NCBI GenBank assembly: GCA_035717485.1
Contig: DASTIQ010000087.1
Coordinates: 1-45,552, forward strand
Reading direction: 5' to 3'
Length of the DNA stretch: 45,552 nucleotides
Source of the DNA: Thermoanaerobaculia bacterium
GTDB lineage: Bacteria; Acidobacteriota; Thermoanaerobaculia; UBA5066; DATFVB01
In this document: piece after piece, positions 10,571-19,641 of the stretch
Layout: the number at the start of each line of letters is the position of its first letter
Numbering within the stretch: the stretch's first letter is position 1
Notes under the pieces: model-generated
Databases searched by the model: none
Told to the model about the DNA's origin: nothing
What the model saw: only the letters and a program-made list of their open reading frames with translations
Made by a program: the position numbers and the translations under genes

Positions 10571-11329
10571 CTAGCGCTTCTTGAAAGCCCAGGCGATCGC
10601 GATCCCCAGCAGATACAGCACCACCATCGGCACCGCGAAGACGCACTGGGTCATCATGTCCGGGGTCGGCGTGATGACGGCCGCGACGATGAAGATGATC
10701 AGCACGGCGTACTTGAACTTCGCGAGCAGGAACCTTTCCGTGACCAGGCCGAGGCGGGCGAGAAAGAAGACGAGGATCGGGAGCTCGAAACAGAGGCCGA
10801 GCCCGAAGATCGTCTTCGACGCGATCGACAGGTATTCGTTGATGGTGATGACCGGCATGAACCCGGTGCTCGTTCCCATCCCGACGAGGAACTCGCACAC
10901 CCGCGGAAACGCCACGAAATAGCCGAACGCGCATCCCGTCAGGAAGAAGACCAGCGTGACGAGCAGGAACGGGATCGCGTACCGGCGCTCGCGGCGGTAG
11001 AGAGCCGGGGAGATGAAGAGCCAGACCTGCCAGAGGAGGAAGGGGGACGCGATGATGATCCCGCCGTAGAGCGCCACCCGGAAATACAGGATGAACGGCT
11101 CCGGCATCGTCGTGAACGCGAGATGGGTTCCCTTGGGGAGGTAGGGCTGGATCGGCCGCTCGATCCAGCGAAACAGCGTCGGCGAATAGGTCCAGGCGCC
11201 GATGAACGCGACCGCGATCGCGAGGATCGACCAGATGAGCCGGCGGCGGAGCTCTTCGAGGTGGTCGAAGAACCCCATCCGGGGGAGCTCTTCGTTCGGC
11301 TCCCGGTCGCGATTGTCGACGATCGGCAA
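10571..11329 (-). CDS. tatC: Sec-independent (Tat) protein translocase subunit TatC
   Basis: 252 residues with six predicted membrane segments, the normal TatC layout. Recognisable blocks are FFDHLEELRRRLIWS at residues 20-34 (cytoplasmic N-terminal signature), the periplasmic FTTMPEPFILYFRVALYGG, PFLLWQVWLFISPALYRRERR and the late VAAVITPTPDMMTQ. TatC is the receptor for twin-arginine signal peptides and exports folded proteins. It lies 21 bp after tatA and is co-transcribed with it. A possible client in this window is the M19-like protein at 22992, which starts with MNRREL. Confidence 0.97.
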   Translation of the reverse strand: MPIVDNRDREPNEELPRMGFFDHLEELRRRLIWSILAIAVAFIGAWTYSPTLFRWIERPIQPYLPKGTHLAFTTMPEPFILYFRVALYGGIIIASPFLLWQVWLFISPALYRRERRYAIPFLLVTLVFFLTGCAFGYFVAFPRVCEFLVGMGTSTGFMPVITINEYLSIASKTIFGLGLCFELPILVFFLARLGLVTERFLLAKFKYAVLIIFIVAAVITPTPDMMTQCVFAVPMVVLYLLGIAIAWAFKKR

Positions 11330-11350
11330 GGACGTGGAGGCCGCGCCCGT

Positions 11351-11605
11351 TTATCCCGGCTTGACGGTCGGATCGACCGCCGGCGGGGGGGGAGCCGGAG
11401 CGGGGGGAGGCTCGATCTTCGCCTCTTCCTTGAGGCCGTCCACCTCCCGCTGGATGCTCTGCTTGAAGTCGTCGGAAGCTTTCTTGAACTCGGCGAGGCC
11501 TTTTCCGAGCGACTTGCCGATCTCCGGGAGCTTCTTCGGACCGAACACGATCAGCGCGACGATGAAGATCAGGATGAGCTCCGGCATTCCGATGGACCCG
11601 AGCAT
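11351..11605 (-). CDS. tatA: Sec-independent translocase subunit TatA/TatB
   Basis: 84 residues. A short N-terminal membrane helix ([16 protein letters not shown]) is followed by [21 protein letters not shown], the TatA hinge and amphipathic helix, then a charged stretch and a Pro-rich tail ([12 protein letters not shown]). TatA forms the pore-like part of the export system; TatA and TatB cannot be told apart with certainty from sequence, and there is no second copy here. The ATG at 11605 has AGAGGTG just upstream, and a TTGACG promoter lies about 20-50 bp further up. tatC follows at once. Confidence 0.93.
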
Positions 11606-11625
11606 GGGCACCTCTTTTCGGGGGT

Positions 11626-11655
11626 ATTCTGTCCCGGGGGGCGACGACGCGTCAA
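11626..11655 (-). promoter_or_regulatory. Candidate sigma70 promoter of tatA-tatC
   Basis: On the minus strand TTGACG (11655-11650) and CAGAAT (11631-11626) are 18 bp apart. They lie about 20 bp upstream of the tatA start. Confidence 0.6.
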
Positions 11656-11753
11656 TGAGGCGAATCGATCTGAACGAGCGCCTGGCGACCCCGGCCTCCG
11701 CGTGCGAGAATGAACGGACCCCTTCGCGCGTTGCGGGGGGTTGGAGGACCCGG

Positions 11754-13367
11754 GTGAAGCGGAAAACGTTGCTTTTCTTCGTCGGAATCGTGGCCGGAGC
11801 GACCCTGCTCGGGGGAGCGGGAGGCAGGAGAACGAGCGCCGCCGATGCGGGCGCGTCGCCGTCCCTTTCGGAGTACGCCGAGGTCGTCACGGCGGCCGGC
11901 GACTGGAGCGCCGAGAAAACCGCTCCGGACAAGCTCGTCTACGCCTCGATCCGCGGGATGCTCTCCCGGCTCGACCCCCACACGAACTTCCTCGATCCCA
12001 ACGAGTTCTCGTCGATGGAAGAGAAGCAGCGCGGCTCGTTCTACGGCCTCGGGATCTCGATCCAGAAGCGGCAGGGGCACGTCACGGTGATCTCTCCGAT
12101 CGAGGGAACCCCTGCCTGGAAGAAGGGCCTTCGCGCGGGCGACATCATCACGCGGATCAACGGCGAGCCGATCGACGACTGGACCTCGGACGAGGTCGTC
12201 CGCCACCTGAAGGGTCCGAAGGGAACCCAGGTGACGATCACGATCCGGCGGGCGGGTTTCCACGAGCCGATCGAAATGACGATCACCCGCGCCGAAATCC
12301 CGACGAACTCGGTCCGCTACGCGTTCATGCTCACCCCGGAAGTCGGGTACGTCCATCTGGCCGAATTCACGCACACGTCCAGCCACGAGGTGATCGCGGC
12401 GATCGACAAGCTCAAGCAGCAGGGAATGAAGAAGCTGATCTTCGACCTGCGGGGCAATCCCGGCGGCGTCCTCGACCAGGCCGTCGACATCGCGGACATC
12501 TTCCTGAAGAAGAAGGACAAGATCGTCTACACGCGCGGCCGGACGTCGTCTTCGGACCAGGATTTCTACGCTCCGGGAAACGGTCCCCACTACGAAGGTC
12601 CGCTCGTCCTGCTCGTCAATCGCGGTTCCGCGTCGGCGTCCGAGATCGTCTCCGGGGCGATCCAGGATCACGACCGCGGCCTGATCGTCGGCACGACGAC
12701 GTGGGGCAAGGGGCTCGTGCAGGGCGTCTACCCGCTTCCGTATGGGGCGGGGCTCGCGCTGACGACCGCGAAGTACTACACGCCGTCCGGACGGTGGATC
12801 CAGCGCGATTACTCGAATTTCTACGACTACATCAATCCCGACGACGACGCCTCGGACAACCGGGACGCCGAGGCGAAGAAGAGCGGGAAGGTGTTCTACA
12901 CGGACGCCGGGCGGCCGGTGTACGCGGCGGGCGGGATCACGCCGGACAGCATCGTGCGGTACGACAAGGCCTCCAAGTTCGTCCAGCGGCTGCAGGCGCA
13001 CGGCGTCTTCTTCAACTTCGCCGTCGACTACCTCGCCGGCCACCCGAACGTGCCCGAGAACCTGCCGGTCGACGAGACGCTCCGGAACGCGTTCTTCCGG
13101 TTCGTGCAGGACCAGGGAGTCGAGGATGCGGCCTCGGTGCGGAAGGACTACGAGGCGGATCCTTCGAAGGACCTGATCGACGCGAGCATCCGCACCGAGA
13201 TCCTGAATTCGAAGTACGGCCTCTCCGAGGGATGGAAGAGCGCGCTGAAGACCGACCGGCAGGCCCAGGCCGCGCTCGCGTCCTTCCCGGAGGCGCAGCG
13301 GATCGCGTCGCTGCCGAAGAAATCTCCGTCGGGGAACGAGACGCCGACGACACGCGCCTCGCGATAA
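11754..13367 (+). CDS. Periplasmic C-terminal processing protease (S41, CtpA/Prc type)
   Basis: 537 residues. The start is a GTG with GGAGG 6 nt upstream. Residues 1-30 are a signal peptide or membrane anchor ([21 protein letters not shown]). A PDZ domain follows (about residues 95-180: [35 protein letters not shown]), then the S41 protease core. The core has [19 protein letters not shown], the nucleophile in GSASASEI (S294) and the Lys base in [10 protein letters not shown] (K319), 25 residues apart as in Prc/CtpA. The role is cleavage of C-termini of periplasmic or envelope proteins. It is longer at the C-terminus than many CtpA proteins. It is divergent from tatA and apparently monocistronic. 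Confidence 0.93.
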
Positions 13368-13491: not shown

Positions 13492-14481
13492 CTATCGCCG
13501 CGCCAGATCCTGCATGGCGGCGAGCCGGTCGGGATGCCCCAGACAGATCATCGTGTCTCCCTGGGCGACGACGTAGCTCGAGTCCGGGTTGAAGATCGAC
13601 TCGCCGGTCGTCTTGTTGACCGCGACGACGATCACGCCGTGCTCGCGGCGGATCGGGCTGTCCGAGAAGGGGACGCCGCAGAGACTCGACGAGGGCTGCA
13701 CGTGGATTTCCTGCATCTCGAGCTCGACGTTCTGCTTGCCGGTCGCGAGGTGGATGAAATCGACGACGGCGGGCATCAGCAGGTGCTGGACCATCTCCCG
13801 TCCGCCGATCTGGGTGGGCGCGATGGTCCGGTCCGCTCCGGCGCGCTTGAGCCGGGCCGAGGCGGCGTCGTCGCTCGTCCGCGCGACGATGCGGACTCCG
13901 GGGTTGGATTCGCGCGCCGTCAACGTCACGTAGAGGTTGTCGGCGTCCGACTCGAGCGCCGCGACGAGCCCCCGGGCCCGCTCGATTCCCGCCTGGGAGA
14001 GAACGCCCTCGGTCGTGGCGTCGCCGAGGATGACGTCCTCGCCCCGCTCGATCCGGTCGCGGACGGCCTCCTCGTTGCGTTCGATGACGACGAACGGGAC
14101 GCCGTGCCGCCCGAGCTCCTCCGCGACGGTGCGGCCGACGCGGCCGTGGCCGCAGACGACGTAGTGTCCTTCCATCCGCGCCACGCGACGTTCCACCTTA
14201 CGCCTCCAGAAGACCCGTCCCATCTCGCCTTCGAAGACGAAACGGGTCGCGATCGAAGCGGCGTAACCGACGACGCCCACGCCGCAGACGAGCAGGAACG
14301 CGTTCAGCTCGCGTCCCGCCCGGGAGAGGGGAGGCATCAGGCCGTGGCCGAGCGGCGTCACCGACAGGAGCGCCGTGTAGAAGGCGTCGAACCAGTCGAG
14401 CCGCTCGATCGAGCGGAAGAGGATCCCGCCCAGGAGGAGGACCGCGGCGAAGAGCGCGAGGGCGCGGTAGAGACGTTGCAT
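13492..14481 (-). CDS. Two-TM potassium-channel-like protein with TrkA-N and TrkA-C (RCK) domains and atypical filter
   Basis: 329 residues. Two membrane helices (about residues 8-22 and 58-80) flank a pore loop, followed by an NAD-binding RCK/TrkA-N domain (HYVVCGHGRVGRTVAEEL from about residue 106) and a TrkA-C domain (VQPSSSLCGVPFSDSPIRREHGVIVVAV). This is the layout of MthK-type potassium channels. The filter is unusual: residues 42-47 read TPLGHG where T-[VI]-G-Y-G is expected, so potassium selectivity should not be assumed. There is no Shine-Dalgarno sequence. A TACAAT -10-like box lies 20 bp upstream. It is downstream of the dipeptidase gene on the same strand but may have its own promoter. 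Confidence 0.85.
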   Translation of the reverse strand: MQRLYRALALFAAVLLLGGILFRSIERLDWFDAFYTALLSVTPLGHGLMPPLSRAGRELNAFLLVCGVGVVGYAASIATRFVFEGEMGRVFWRRKVERRVARMEGHYVVCGHGRVGRTVAEELGRHGVPFVVIERNEEAVRDRIERGEDVILGDATTEGVLSQAGIERARGLVAALESDADNLYVTLTARESNPGVRIVARTSDDAASARLKRAGADRTIAPTQIGGREMVQHLLMPAVVDFIHLATGKQNVELEMQEIHVQPSSSLCGVPFSDSPIRREHGVIVVAVNKTTGESIFNPDSSYVVAQGDTMICLGHPDRLAAMQDLARR

Positions 14482-14501
14482 GGGGCATGGATCTCGGAAC
14501 G

Positions 14502-14507
14502 ATTGTA
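14502..14507 (-). promoter_or_regulatory. Candidate -10 box (TACAAT) of the TrkA-type channel gene
   Basis: TACAAT on the minus strand matches 5 of 6 consensus bases and lies 20 bp before the ATG at 14481. No TTGACA-like -35 is visible. Confidence 0.4.
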
Positions 14508-14547
14508 CCGCCGGGCGGGGAGTTCGGCGCGTTTCCTCCGCTCCCGG

Positions 14548-15801
14548 TCATTCGTGTATTGTTCGACCTGCCGGCGGGATCGTCGCCGCCGACGGCGGCT
14601 CCGCCGCGAGGGACCGCGACACCTCCTCGACCCTGGCGAAGAAGCGGAGGAAGTTCTCCCCGAGCACTCCGCGGACGTCCTCCTCCGGGTGCCCGCGCCG
14701 CAGGAGCTCTTCCGTGATCCGGGGCAGCTTCGAGACGTCCTCGAGGCCGTCGGGCGGATCGGGGATGCCGTCGAAGTCGCTGCCGATGCCGGCCGCGCCC
14801 GGTCCCGCGATCCGCATCACGCGTTCGATGTGGTCGACGACCTTCTCCCAGCCGGCCCGGCCCGGCGGCACGGCGTCGAAGAGCGCGTTGGACTCCTTCT
14901 CCAGCCGCAGGGGATCGGAGGCGTGTTTCGCCTTCAGGGCCTCGTACCGGGGAGCCAGGGCGGCGATCCGCGCGCGGTAGTCCGCGGCGGCGCCCGCGTC
15001 GACGAACATCGCGCTGACGTTGACCATGACGACGCCGCCGCCGGCGCCGATGCGGAGGATCTGGTCGTCCGTGAGATTCCGGGGAATCGGGGAGAGCGCG
15101 CGGCAGGAGGAATGGGACGCGAAGACGGGCGCGCGGGATGCCGCGAGCACGGCGTCGAGCGTTTCGTCCGAGACGTGCGAGACGTCGACCATCATTCCGA
15201 GGCGGTTCATCTCCCGCACGACCGCGCGTCCGAAATCCGTCAATCCGCCGTGGACGCGAGCCTTCTTCGGATCGAAGTCGGGAGAGGTGAACGACCCCGA
15301 GGAGTCGGCCCAATGGTTCGTGTTCGTGTGCGTGAGCGTCATGTAGCGGACGCCGAGCCGGTGGAAATCGCGCAGGGCGCCGAGCGAATCCTCGATCGCG
15401 TGGCCGCCTTCGATCCCCGTCAGGATCGCGATCTTCCCCTCGGTCTTGATCCGCCGGACGTCCCTCGCAGACGCGGCGAAGGCGAGCTCGGCGGGATGCG
15501 CGTCGACGACCCGGTGGACGAGATCGACGAGCTCGAGCGCTTTCTTCGCCGCGCCCCCCGCTTCCGCGTAAACCGCCGGGACGTAGGCGGCGAAGAACGC
15601 CGCGGACAGGCCCCCGGCCTTCGCGCGCGGGATGTCGAAGTGGCGCGTCGCGCCGGGGACGGCGATGTCGGCCCATTTTTCGTCGAGCTCCCACGGGACG
15701 TCTTCGTGCGTGTCCACGACGATCGCCTCGCGGTGGAGGCGGGCGGCCCGGAGGGCGGTGTCGTCGGCGTCGGCCGGAACCGGGGAAACGGCCGCGATCA
15801 C
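14548..15801 (-). CDS. Membrane dipeptidase family M19 (renal dipeptidase-like), canonical metal site
   Basis: 417 residues. All binuclear zinc ligands of the M19 family are visible: H32 and D34 in VDTHEDVP, the bridging Glu in GIEGGHAIED, and His residues in VDVSHVSDE and FASHSSCRA, plus the late GIGSDFDGI Asp. The enzyme hydrolyses dipeptides, including D-residue-containing ones in some members. The only start codon in frame is a GTG at 15801. The N-terminus (VIAAVSPVPADADD) is a weak signal peptide at best, so the true leader may have been lost or altered. It lies 24 bp after kdsC in the same direction. A second, divergent M19 protein is encoded at 22992. Confidence 0.92.
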   Translation of the reverse strand: MIAAVSPVPADADDTALRAARLHREAIVVDTHEDVPWELDEKWADIAVPGATRHFDIPRAKAGGLSAAFFAAYVPAVYAEAGGAAKKALELVDLVHRVVDAHPAELAFAASARDVRRIKTEGKIAILTGIEGGHAIEDSLGALRDFHRLGVRYMTLTHTNTNHWADSSGSFTSPDFDPKKARVHGGLTDFGRAVVREMNRLGMMVDVSHVSDETLDAVLAASRAPVFASHSSCRALSPIPRNLTDDQILRIGAGGGVVMVNVSAMFVDAGAAADYRARIAALAPRYEALKAKHASDPLRLEKESNALFDAVPPGRAGWEKVVDHIERVMRIAGPGAAGIGSDFDGIPDPPDGLEDVSKLPRITEELLRRGHPEEDVRGVLGENFLRFFARVEEVSRSLAAEPPSAATIPPAGRTIHE

Positions 15802-15825
15802 CGCCGCCGAGATCCTTTCCGCACG

Positions 15826-16305
15826 TCATCCTCCCGCGGCATCGTTCCTCCGAAGGATTTCCTCGACGAACTCGCGAACGGCGCCGTGTCCGCCGGGCCG
15901 TTCGAGCACGAGGTCGACCCGGCCGCGGACCTCCGCCGGAGCGTCCGCGGGGCAGGCGGAGAACCCGCAGGCGTCGAAGAGGGGGAGGTCGGGGAGATCG
16001 TCACCGCAGGCGGCCGCTTCCGCCCGCTCGATCTTCCACCGCGCGAGGTAGTCGCGGACCGCGGCGCCCTTGTCGCGGACTCCCTGCTTCAGGGCGCGCA
16101 CGCCGAGGTCCCGGGCCCGGACGACCGTCGCTCCCGAGACGCGGCCGGAGATCCACGCGACCTTCAGACCCGCTTCGATCGCCATCTTGATCCCGTGTCC
16201 GTCCTTCGTGTCGAAGACCTTCATTTCGCGGGCGCGATCGTCGATGTACAGGCGCCCGTCGGTCAGGACGCCGTCCACGTCGAAGAAGAGGGCGCGGATC
16301 TTCAA
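15826..16305 (-). CDS. kdsC: 3-deoxy-D-manno-octulosonate 8-phosphate phosphatase
   Basis: 159 residues, close to the usual KdsC size with almost no extra cap domain. HAD motifs are in order: FFDVDGVLTDG near the N-terminus (nucleophile Asp and general acid Asp), WISGRVSGATVVRA (motif II Ser), a Lys in QGVRDKG, and CGDDLPDLPLF (motif III acids). It removes phosphate from KDO-8-phosphate to give KDO for lipid A-core. The start is a TTG at 16305 that overlaps the kdsD stop as TTGA; no ATG exists near it. This is one of two TTGA junctions in the window. Confidence 0.93.
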   Translation of the reverse strand: MKIRALFFDVDGVLTDGRLYIDDRAREMKVFDTKDGHGIKMAIEAGLKVAWISGRVSGATVVRARDLGVRALKQGVRDKGAAVRDYLARWKIERAEAAACGDDLPDLPLFDACGFSACPADAPAEVRGRVDLVLERPGGHGAVREFVEEILRRNDAAGG

Positions 16306-17258
16306 AACAGGCCGACGCCCCACAGGTCGTGCAGGTGGAGCGCGCCGATCAGGCGCCCGGCGCCGTCCACGACGAAGAGCGAGGTGATCTTCGCCTCTTC
16401 CATCCGGCGGAGGGCCGCCGAAGCGAATTCCTCCTCCGCGATGGTCCTGGGATTCGGATGCGCGCATTCCCCGGCCGTCTTCGCCAGGAGCCGGTCGTCG
16501 GACTGGAGGAGCCGGCGGAGGTCGCCGTCGGAAATCGCGCCGCAGAGCGTGCCGTCGTTTCGGACCACCGCCGTGATTCCCATCAACTTCGCCGACATCT
16601 CGTGGACCGCGTCGGTCATCCGCGTTTCGGGCGCGACGCGCGGGATGCGGTCGCCGCGCCGCATCAGGTCGCGCACCCGCAGGAACTTCTTTCCGAGCTT
16701 CCCTCCGGGATGGAGGGCGGCGAAGTCCTCCTCGCGGAACCCGCGCTTCTCGGAAAGCGCCATCGCGAGCGCGTCCCCCATCGCCAGCATCGCCGTCGTC
16801 GAGGCGGTCGGCGCGAGGTTCAGGGGGCAGGCTTCTCGGGAGATCGCGACCGAGATCGCATGATCCGCCGCGCGCGCGAGCGTCGATTCCGGGGTTCCGG
16901 TCATCGTGATGAGCGGGATCGCGAGGCGTTTGAGGAATTCGAGCAATCGGCAGATCTCCTCGGTCTCCCCGGAGTAGGAGAGCGCGAGAACGACGTCTCC
17001 GCGGATCACCATCCCCAGATCGCCGTGGATCGCCTCCGCCGGATGGAGGAAGAAGGCGGGTGTTCCCGTCGAGGCGAGCGTCGCCGCGATCTTCTGTCCC
17101 ACGATCCCGGATTTCCCCATCCCGGTGACGACGACGCGTCCCTGGCAGGAGTGCATGGCTTCGACCGCGCTCTCGAAAGCGGGGCCGACGTTTTCGATCT
17201 GCTCGCGGACGGAGTCCGCCTCGATGCGGAGGACTTTCCTGGCGCTGTCCAGAATCAC
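16302..17258 (-). CDS. kdsD: Arabinose-5-phosphate isomerase (KpsF/GutQ/KdsD family)
   Basis: 318 residues. An N-terminal SIS domain (GRVVVTGMGKSGIVGQKIAATL, FFLHPAEAIHGDLG, LSYSGETEEI) is followed by two CBS domains (from about residue 200: RGDRIPRVAPETRM and NPRTIAEEEFAS). It converts ribulose-5-phosphate to arabinose-5-phosphate, the first step towards KDO. Position next to kdsC and near kdsA supports a KDO role rather than sugar-alcohol metabolism. The start is a GTG at 17258 with no Shine-Dalgarno sequence; TAGACT ends 6 nt before it, so a leaderless transcript is likely. Repeat element B lies directly upstream of that hexamer. Confidence 0.94.
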   Translation of the reverse strand: MILDSARKVLRIEADSVREQIENVGPAFESAVEAMHSCQGRVVVTGMGKSGIVGQKIAATLASTGTPAFFLHPAEAIHGDLGMVIRGDVVLALSYSGETEEICRLLEFLKRLAIPLITMTGTPESTLARAADHAISVAISREACPLNLAPTASTTAMLAMGDALAMALSEKRGFREEDFAALHPGGKLGKKFLRVRDLMRRGDRIPRVAPETRMTDAVHEMSAKLMGITAVVRNDGTLCGAISDGDLRRLLQSDDRLLAKTAGECAHPNPRTIAEEEFASAALRRMEEAKITSLFVVDGAGRLIGALHLHDLWGVGLF

Positions 17259-17742: not shown

Positions 17743-19641
17743 TCAGAGGTGGAGAGTTCTCACCAGGAACGCGGCCATCTGCTCGCGCGGCACGCTCAAG
17801 TTCGGGCAGTACATCCCGCCGCCGCAACCGAGCGTGATCGATTCGCGGGCGAGCTGCTCGATCCATGGGGCCGCGAACGCGCTCGCCGGGACGTCGGAGA
17901 ACATCGTCCCGGTCGCCGCCGGAGGAACGTAGGCGCTCCCGTGCTCGGCGCGGAGGAGCAGGATCGCCATCTGGGCACGCGTGACCCCGTTCGTCGGGCA
18001 ATAGGTCGTGGCGCCGCACCCGCTCGTGATCTTGCGCCGGCTGAAGTCCTCGATGAAATCGTAGGCGTAAGAGCCGGGAGGAACGTCCGAGAAGATCTGG
18101 GGCTGGCCGGGCGGCGGGACGAAGGCGTTCAGGCCGCGCTCGATGAAGACCGCCATGTCCGCGCGGGTGACGAGTCCGGCCGGACAGAACGTCGTCGCCG
18201 TGCAGCCCGGCATGATTCCCCAGGCGGCGACCGTGTAGACCGACGGGGCGAGCCCGTCCGAGGAAGAGATGTCCGTGAAGCCCCCGGCGGCCATGCAGGC
18301 GGGGGAAGAGGACGCCGCGTTGACGATCGTCGGCCGCATCTGCTCCGAGATGCACCGCGAATGGAACTTCAGGGAGATCTCGCTCCAGCCGAACAGATGG
18401 CAGTAGCTCATGATGGTCCCGACGCCGGGACCGGGGTCGACGTTCGGTCCGCTGTAGCAGCCCGGCTCGCCGCCGTAGCACTCGTCGATGGGAGGCGAGT
18501 AGCAGTGCGTGTGGACGGACCCGAAGTTGTGACCGAGCTCGTGCGCGACGGCCTCCACGTCCCACACGTCGCTCCCGGCGGGCGGGGAGTGGAAGTTCGT
18601 CATGCTCCCTTCGACGTTTCCGACGACGGCGTATCCGCCCGCCCAGTGCGCGTCGGCGGAATCCCACTGGTCGCCCTGGCAGATCGTCGAGAGCCAGGCG
18701 ACTCCGCCCCCGAGGTCCTTGCCGCTCAGGAACACCACCGTCGACCGCGCCGTTCCCGAGCCGTGCGCGTGCCAGTAATCGCCGAGCTGGAAAAGGGCGG
18801 AGATCGGGCTCGTCGCCGTCCACGGGTCGCTCGCCGTGGTCCAGACCCGGAGGAACCCGATCTTCAGGCGCGTCTTCAGGTCGCGCCAGTAGATCGCCGA
18901 AACCGCGGCGAGCTCGTTCGAGACGTAGTTCCGTTCCTTCGCCGCGTTGCCGAATCGCTGAAAGAGCTCGTAGTCCGTGTCGACCGCGACCACGGCGGCG
19001 AACGGCTGGCCGGTGTCGGCGACGGCCGTGAGCAGCGCCTCCCGTGTGGCGGGGGCGGTCATCCGCTCCGCGTCGCACCGCCAGGCTCCCGCGAGGGCCG
19101 CCCATTCCTCGGGAGAAAGCCGGCGGACGACGTGGTCGGCGGTTTCCCGCTCCCAGCGGCCGCGCGGCTCGATCGCGAACGTGTCCGCGCCGCGCTGGAC
19201 GATCGCGTGAACGCTCGCGCGGAACGCGGAAAGAAAGACTCGCGATTGCGGGTCTCCGGCGACCGTGCCTTCGTAGAACGCCCCGTCGGGAAGGGGAGCG
19301 TCGGTTTCGACGCCCGCCTCTCCCGCCTCGACGTTTCGGGCGGCGTCCGAGAAGAGGTCGAACCGGCGGAGCTCGAGATCGACGGATTCCGACGCGTCGA
19401 GCGGAAGGCTCCGGACCGTCACCGTTTCCTCCGCTCGGATGCTCCGAAGCTCGTTCAGGGCGTCGGAGCGGAGGAGAACTCCGAGCTCACGGGGGGTCCC
19501 CGCCGTGGCTTCGGATTTCACCGCCGGCGGCCCCGCGCGTGCCACCGGCGAATCGATCGCGCGGGCGGCGCCCGGATCGGCCGAACCGAGGAGCGAGAGC
19601 AGGAAGACGCCGGTCGCGAGCGGGAACCCGGGGCGGATCAT
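17743..19641 (-). CDS. Secreted reprolysin-like zinc metalloprotease with three C-terminal SLH-like repeats
   Basis: 632 residues. A signal peptide (MIRPGFPLATGVFLLSLLGSA) is followed by a propeptide-like region (about 50-190). A metzincin domain of the M12/reprolysin type then has HELGHNFGSVH at residues 367-377 and a Met-turn in GTIMSYCH. From about residue 450 three SLH-like units follow. Each has an FxD[VI] start and a Cys pair before a conserved [VT]xR[AE][DQ]MA block (GCTATTFCP, GCGATTYCP, GCGGGMYCP). The enzyme is probably exported and held at the cell surface or in the matrix; the substrate is unknown. TACGGT ends 6 nt before the ATG and there is no Shine-Dalgarno sequence. It separates kdsA from kdsD/kdsC on the same strand. 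Confidence 0.88.
   Translation of the reverse strand: MIRPGFPLATGVFLLSLLGSADPGAARAIDSPVARAGPPAVKSEATAGTPRELGVLLRSDALNELRSIRAEETVTVRSLPLDASESVDLELRRFDLFSDAARNVEAGEAGVETDAPLPDGAFYEGTVAGDPQSRVFLSAFRASVHAIVQRGADTFAIEPRGRWERETADHVVRRLSPEEWAALAGAWRCDAERMTAPATREALLTAVADTGQPFAAVVAVDTDYELFQRFGNAAKERNYVSNELAAVSAIYWRDLKTRLKIGFLRVWTTASDPWTATSPISALFQLGDYWHAHGSGTARSTVVFLSGKDLGGGVAWLSTICQGDQWDSADAHWAGGYAVVGNVEGSMTNFHSPPAGSDVWDVEAVAHELGHNFGSVHTHCYSPPIDECYGGEPGCYSGPNVDPGPGVGTIMSYCHLFGWSEISLKFHSRCISEQMRPTIVNAASSSPACMAAGGFTDISSSDGLAPSVYTVAAWGIMPGCTATTFCPAGLVTRADMAVFIERGLNAFVPPPGQPQIFSDVPPGSYAYDFIEDFSRRKITSGCGATTYCPTNGVTRAQMAILLLRAEHGSAYVPPAATGTMFSDVPASAFAAPWIEQLARESITLGCGGGMYCPNLSVPREQMAAFLVRTLHL

Follow-up and report, generated by a model that had tools for sequence, protein, structure and literature searches.

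The window, that is, the whole stretch of 45,552 nucleotides of a Thermoanaerobaculia draft genome that was analysed here, carries on its minus strand, at 13492..14481, an open reading frame with an ATG start that encodes a 329-residue 2TM-RCK channel protein, with MthK and GsuK as the best matches among solved structures. The domains follow the order Ion_trans_2, TrkA_N and TrkA_C, each above the curated Pfam cut-off: Ion_trans_2 comprises residues 11-83 (E 6.4e-8), the RCK N-lobe (TrkA_N) residues 107-222 (13816..14163, minus; E 7.2e-34), and the RCK C-lobe (TrkA_C) residues 257-326 (13504..13713, minus; E 1.6e-9). In the AlphaFold2 model of the monomer, residues 2-26 form a first transmembrane helix (14404..14478, minus; block pLDDT 80-88) and residues 54-84 the second, inner helix (14230..14322, minus), in which the G69 column is glycine in 115 of 146 homologues; between them, residues 30-41 (14359..14394, minus) form the pore helix, as seen both in the model and in a gapless alignment with MthK. 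MthK (PDB 1LNQ and others) agrees in length and in the order of its domains; it can be aligned with residues 6-324 (phmmer E 5.3e-27) and was the top Foldseek match, with GsuK and RCK domains, including that of MthK, among the further fold matches. The best phmmer score was obtained with the RCK part of GsuK of Geobacter (E 2.3e-31; PDB 4GX0, 4GX5), which shares the 2TM-plus-RCK build but has two RCK units per chain and a T-L-G-F-G-D filter. The full-length AlphaFold2 monomer has a mean pLDDT of 83 and was built from only 6 sequences, and a pore-only single-sequence model was poor (mean pLDDT 69.7). An antisense open frame of 1109 codons (13534-16863, plus) overlaps the channel and dipeptidase genes and, judging by the high G+C content, is probably a base-composition artefact.

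The dipeptidase gene (14548..15801, minus), which lies 66 bases upstream of the channel gene, encodes a membrane dipeptidase of the Peptidase_M19 family (Pfam E 1.5e-102). In the one further genome from this genus and family that we examined (G001, the congener) it likewise stands beside the channel, the two copies being 89.5% identical. Further upstream lie genes for a HAD phosphatase and a SIS/CBS protein, which we read as KdsC/KdsD type. In a homologous locus from another family of the class (L030), the adjoining protein is 62% identical to the SIS/CBS (KdsD-like) protein of the window, and the channel family may have a loose link with a KdsD-like operon; the M19 dipeptidase was seen beside the channel only in the congener, and the KdsD-like protein in this one further homologue. 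On the other side, an S41 peptidase gene and then TatA/TatC genes occupy 10571-13367, while in the congener (L004) TatC adjoins the channel on the other strand, with no S41 match within the 1.5 kb examined, which looks like an inversion of the block of tat and S41 genes or a local assembly difference. More distantly, 17743-19641 (minus) encodes a reprolysin-like M12 metallopeptidase with C-terminal SLH repeats. We considered the neighborhood as a functional clue, but no neighbor explains the filter or points to a specific role, and a promoter scan of the channel gene gave nothing above chance. The genome encodes KdpA and Kup, so that dedicated K+ uptake is covered elsewhere and a house-keeping role of the channel in K+ uptake is unlikely. 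A TrkH/KtrB partner (PF02386, E 0.001) was not found in this genome or in the congener, both of which are drafts of about 97% completeness; a TrkA-like protein with two RCK units is encoded on another contig of the genome (C132, L005 1486-2877, minus).

Directly behind the pore helix, residues 42-47 read T42-P43-L44-G45-H46-G47 (14341..14358, minus), and the sequence is identical in the congener. The preliminary description had reported TPLGHG within an intact two-helix pore with RCK domains, placing it within 14320-14360, and the direct reading, the alignments and the intact Pfam domains confirm this. In the phmmer alignment the pore runs without a gap against MthK, with P43 at the position of T59, L44 at V60, G45 at G61, H46 at Y62, G47 at G63 and L48 at D64, so that I-A-T-V-G-Y-G-D of MthK lies over V-T-P-L-G-H-G-L, and 146 homologues align in the same register. 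T42 thus lies one residue ahead of the signature, and the signature proper is P-L-G-H-G, which departs from the T-x-G-(Y/F/L)-G signature of K+ channels. Four features are changed: the S4 threonine to proline, valine to leucine, tyrosine to histidine, and the acidic residue behind the filter (D64 in MthK) to leucine (L48; 14338..14340, minus; alignment with the 146 homologues). Prolines are found at residues 50 and 51, and none at 48. A shifted register, in which T42 would be the S4 threonine and a proline would have been inserted, is the less simple reading, and we rejected it because on both flanks, in the pore helix and in the PLS...AG segment, the alignment with MthK and with nearly all homologues is free of gaps. 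It had also been stated that proline and histidine take the place of filter-lining residues; both sites are indeed replaced, but the side chain of the tyrosine is itself not pore-lining. In solved K+ channels, this side chain is directed away from the pore, which is lined by the carbonyl alone. His46 would therefore meet ions only if the filter had a different shape, as is the case with Asn66 in the channel NaKTs (PMC5052707).

To our comparison we admitted loci from searches of the class and the phylum, five loci of named genomes and further stretches; 156 loci in total matched the protein. From these we removed five distant channels of another build, the window itself (present twice), its congener and the organism's own TrkA, which lacks a pore and accounted for two loci. 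This left 146 homologues, all drawn from the highest-ranking matches; 141 belong to the same phylum, and some genomes are represented twice. Neither proline at position 43 nor histidine at position 46 occurs in any of these 146 aligned sequences: the P43 column contains T in 138, S in 5, A and G in 1 each and a gap in 1, the L44 column V in 112, I in 32, A in 1 and a gap in 1, and the H46 column Y in 84, F in 61 and L in 1, while G45 is invariant (146/146) and the L48 column is E in 125, D in 11 and another residue in 10. A 37-residue pore query matched 20 of 396 phylum genomes, with the proline filter only in the two of this genus, and 9 of all 148 class genomes examined, with full identity only in the same two; six of the seven other class matches fell at places whose gene had been aligned and lacks the proline, so that the filter is known for six of these seven, and a proline filter inside a very dissimilar pore could be missed by such a query. 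Within the order, 2 of 19 genomes gave a full-length match. Among plasmids, the whole protein matched 283 records, in 17 of which a single place spanned at least 80% of the query, and the two filters that were read contain no proline; the pore query gave 19 weak plasmid matches, including the Hymenobacter record with its non-proline filter. One relative was seen among viral contigs (IMGVR_UViG_3300009011_000414, L181), and its similarity is confined to the RCK part (33% identity with residues 101-259).

In the congener, the channel is identical at 304 of 329 residues (93%). All 25 differences lie outside residues 16-99, a segment of 84 residues without any amino-acid change. A codon-by-codon comparison of the two genes gave a dS of 0.50, a dN of 0.042 and a dN/dS of 0.085; residues 26-62, which contain about 29 synonymous sites, differ by 11 synonymous changes and by no non-synonymous change, and residues 36-52 by five synonymous and no non-synonymous changes. 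With a dN of 0.021 for residues 1-90 vs 0.051 for residues 91-329, and no change in residues 16-99, the transmembrane part is the most constrained, every filter residue included. The Pro-His filter is thus fixed in both genomes of the genus and selected. The preliminary description had held that GYG in close relatives would point to a local mutation or a sequencing error; the congener carries TPLGHG, and it is the distant homologues that show TVG(Y/F)x. Since the genome is a draft in 339 contigs, a sequencing or assembly error or a decaying gene might be suspected, but the independent congener genome with the same filter and purely synonymous differences over residues 36-52, together with the low dN/dS and a frame that is open without stops, refutes this explanation, to which we assign a negligible probability.

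The selection pattern shows that the protein has a function, without telling which, and it fits a non-conducting sensor equally well. In that case, the pore would merely anchor an RCK sensor to the membrane, or the protein would be a modulatory subunit that joins another channel. The simultaneous alteration of four conserved filter features would be in line with such a loss of conduction, and so would the AlphaFold2 monomer, in which residues 43-48 are drawn as a helical turn, albeit at the lowest confidence within the pore (block 41-50, pLDDT 68; 6 sequences); the model gives no support to an open filter and tells nothing firm about the filter. Against this stands the transmembrane part as the most constrained part of the protein, with all filter residues included, and for a modulatory subunit a search of the genome revealed no further 2TM-RCK gene that it could join. 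As a candidate partner we rejected the only other Ion_trans_2 gene, which lacks an RCK domain and has a TLGLGD filter. The preliminary description had also raised the option of a sensor instead of a channel; the data neither favor it nor speak decisively against it, and we consider a non-conducting pore unlikely.

Only one characterised channel with a proline in place of the S4 threonine was found in our literature search, and this is NaKTs of Tsukamurella paurometabola (Tpau_1687; PDB 5CBG, 5CBH), which has the filter L-P63-M64-G65-N66-G67-P68 (PMC5052707). NaKTs conducts both K+ and Na+ without selectivity and requires Ca2+ with a half-effect at about 4 mM; the S-Ca site consists of backbone atoms around Pro63, and Asn66 points into the pore in the structure solved at 3.15 A (PMC5052707). 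When NaKTs was given the KcsA filter TVGYGD, it conducted K+ without the need for Ca2+, and its authors reported in 2016 that they had come across no similar filter in databases (PMC5052707). Judged from the published filter sequence, the channel described here shares with NaKTs the two-helix pore and the register, P-L-G-H-G standing against P-M-G-N-G, and thus shows the NaKTs-type pattern of a proline at the S4 threonine, a glycine, a polar residue at the tyrosine and a second glycine. The statement that the ion specificity could differ is supported by this analogy, as NaKTs with its proline at the same position is non-selective (PMC5052707). There are also differences: NaKTs was cloned as a protein of 123 residues without RCK, whereas the channel has a full RCK unit; Ser59 of NaKTs, which binds Ca2+ through its backbone carbonyl only, corresponds to L39; and conduction was measured for NaKTs, whereas the channel is known from its sequence. 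The likeness may extend to the mechanism, in that the filter itself would be the gate, opened by Ca2+ or another divalent ion or by protonation of a ring of histidines, and the RCK ring would add a second gate. Such gating, which overlaps with the RCK-gated channel of relaxed selectivity that we favor, would agree with the common P-[M/L]-G-[N/H]-G register and with the fact that the S-Ca site is made of backbone atoms near the proline and needs no special side chains (PMC5052707). Yet the same trick would have to have originated twice independently, the second proline behind the filter is absent (P68 in NaKTs, L48 in the channel), and histidine could block divalent ions instead of binding them, so we regard a gate at the filter as rather unlikely.

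The comparison with MthK shows what the filter has lost. In MthK, T59 alone forms S4, and a hydrogen bond between Y51 and D64 holds the conducting filter, as described in an excerpt of the respective study (PMC10274084). In the gapless alignment of the pore helix, Y35 corresponds to MthK Y51 and L39 to MthK V55, residues whose roles are given in the same excerpt (PMC10274084). The channel, with PLGHGL in place of the MthK filter TVGYGD, therefore keeps the tyrosine of this cuff (Y35) but has lost its acidic partner and the S4 threonine, and histidine has replaced the filter tyrosine, which removes features that are tied to the MthK filter according to that source (PMC10274084). Another 2TM channel with an altered signature is NaK (TVGDGN), which has poor selectivity, as stated in an excerpt (PMC9822992); NaK, however, is altered at the tyrosine and beyond, with an unchanged threonine, and its matched deposited chains are pore-sized and have no RCK.

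The RCK part differs from that of MthK as well. The nucleotide-binding motif G111-H-G113-R-V-G116 with E134 (GxGxxG and the acidic residue that ends strand 2) is present, and in the 146 homologues G111 is found in 146, G113 in 140 and G116 in 140, with E or D at position 134 in 136. The MthK-type RCK Ca2+ site is not kept: MthK D184 corresponds to D179, but E210, which we take to be a residue of that site, is R201 in the channel, and E212 is S203; the R201 column contains R or K in 141 of 146 homologues. D184 and E212 are named as mutated sites in the titles of solved MthK structures. On account of R201 and S203 we rejected an MthK-type gating by Ca2+ through the RCK domain, and the channel is therefore no Ca2+-gated MthK orthologue, though it lies within the wider 2TM-RCK family. 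As the nucleotide motif is kept and the Ca2+ site is lost, a nucleotide would be the likelier ligand; GsuK is activated by NAD+ and ADP, as an excerpt of its description states (PMC3510474), which makes a nucleotide ligand plausible for this channel.

From the sequence, domain order, register, conservation and selection observed here, we infer an RCK-gated cation channel that has lost strict K+ selectivity, and we give this reading an even chance of being correct. The protein would form a homotetrameric cation channel of the inner membrane with MthK-like 2TM-RCK architecture, whose RCK gating ring, with a nucleotide as its ligand in place of the Ca2+ that binds to the MthK site, would pull at the inner helices. 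Pro43 would strip S4 of its threonine hydroxyls and may widen or stiffen the inner end of the filter, and with the filter tyrosine and the acidic residue behind the filter, the cuff of hydrogen bonds by which a K+-selective filter is held would be gone. Four His46 side chains would be placed where NaKTs has its pore-facing Asn66, a pore-facing orientation that is suggested by a single NaKTs structure at 3.15 A. The outcome would be a poorly selective monovalent cation channel for K+ and Na+ that is possibly modulated at the filter by divalent ions or protons.

The preliminary description implied a contrast between one odd protein and relatives with GYG, which proved too simple. The last glycine of the signature (G47 column, 14341-14343) is present in 53 of the 146 homologues, with the channel among the keepers, and absent in 93, where its place is taken by R (41), K (15), Q (10), S (9), A or N (6 each) and, in the remaining six homologues, by residues found once or twice. 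On a maximum-likelihood tree that was quickly built from 146 rows (the window, the congener and 144 homologues, with two partial rows left out and the filter columns removed), presence or absence of this glycine changes 24 times by parsimony, at least 17 of these changes being forced by strongly supported branches, vs 44 with shuffled labels, the count being approximate as the tree is quick and has several long branches. Sister pairs with G and R are clear on the tree, for example L062 (TVGFGE) and L095 (TVGFRE), while the window and the congener stand alone on a long stem (1.54 changes per column), and no sister group to them is supported. Two plasmid-encoded 2TM-RCK proteins of the same family and length, WP_037196474.1 from Rhodococcus sp. 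DK17 (STVGFREVHPL) and WP_243520734.1 from Hymenobacter (SGGGYEVLRPL), likewise lack the last glycine; the Rhodococcus protein keeps threonine and the aromatic residue, and the channel is the reverse case. No paper that treats TVGFR, TVGYR, TVGFK, TVGFQ or TVGYK as a channel filter was found in the one open-access library searched, nor did this library yield one discussing these family filters.

This turnover bears on whether the channel might still prefer K+. Ion sites are made by backbone carbonyls, G45 and G47 are kept, so that proline, leucine and histidine could be tolerated, and the family may hold its filter differently. Both filter glycines are retained, the second of which is missing in 93 of the 146 homologues; the family keeps a TVG(Y/F) core and has swapped the last glycine at least 17 times, which suggests that the canonical filter is not needed for its role, and RefSeq names the two plasmid-encoded relatives without this glycine "potassium channel protein". 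The two sites changed in the channel are otherwise held, however, with T, S, A or G in 145 of 145 residues (T in 138) at position 43 and Y, F or L in 146 of 146 at position 46, and the sole characterised channel found with a proline there is non-selective (PMC5052707). We therefore consider a persisting K+ preference unlikely, and the favored reading is that of a channel without strict K+ selectivity.

In summary, the architecture of the channel and one characterised parallel, NaKTs, were already known, and what is new is a second Pro-x-Gly-polar-Gly filter, in an RCK protein that is under strong purifying selection. We tentatively propose that the Pro-x-Gly-polar-Gly filter, so far known from NaKTs only, arose independently on an RCK-gated K+-channel scaffold in a single bacterial lineage, which would result in a nucleotide-gated and filter-gated cation channel with a ring of histidines, alongside a signature that is plastic across the family. 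The K+ signature ranks with the most conserved of all motifs, and in an excerpt of a 2025 review TxVG(Y/F/L)G is described as obligatory in all K+ channels (PMC12332018). The channel thus lets one ask whether K+ selectivity is lost through a proline at S4 alone and whether such a pore can be gated by an RCK ring. The turnover of the last glycine across the family is the broader lead and possibly more important than the Pro-His filter. With similar reserve, we suggest that the K+ signature of this large 2TM-RCK family is plastic, down to its last glycine, and has changed many times while the gene was retained, together with the independent origin of the Pro-x-Gly-polar-Gly filter, and that many annotated "potassium channels" are possibly something else. 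With 93 of 146 members devoid of the last glycine, the family offers a mutational series made by nature for work on the filter, and it warns against the naming of K+ channels by homology.
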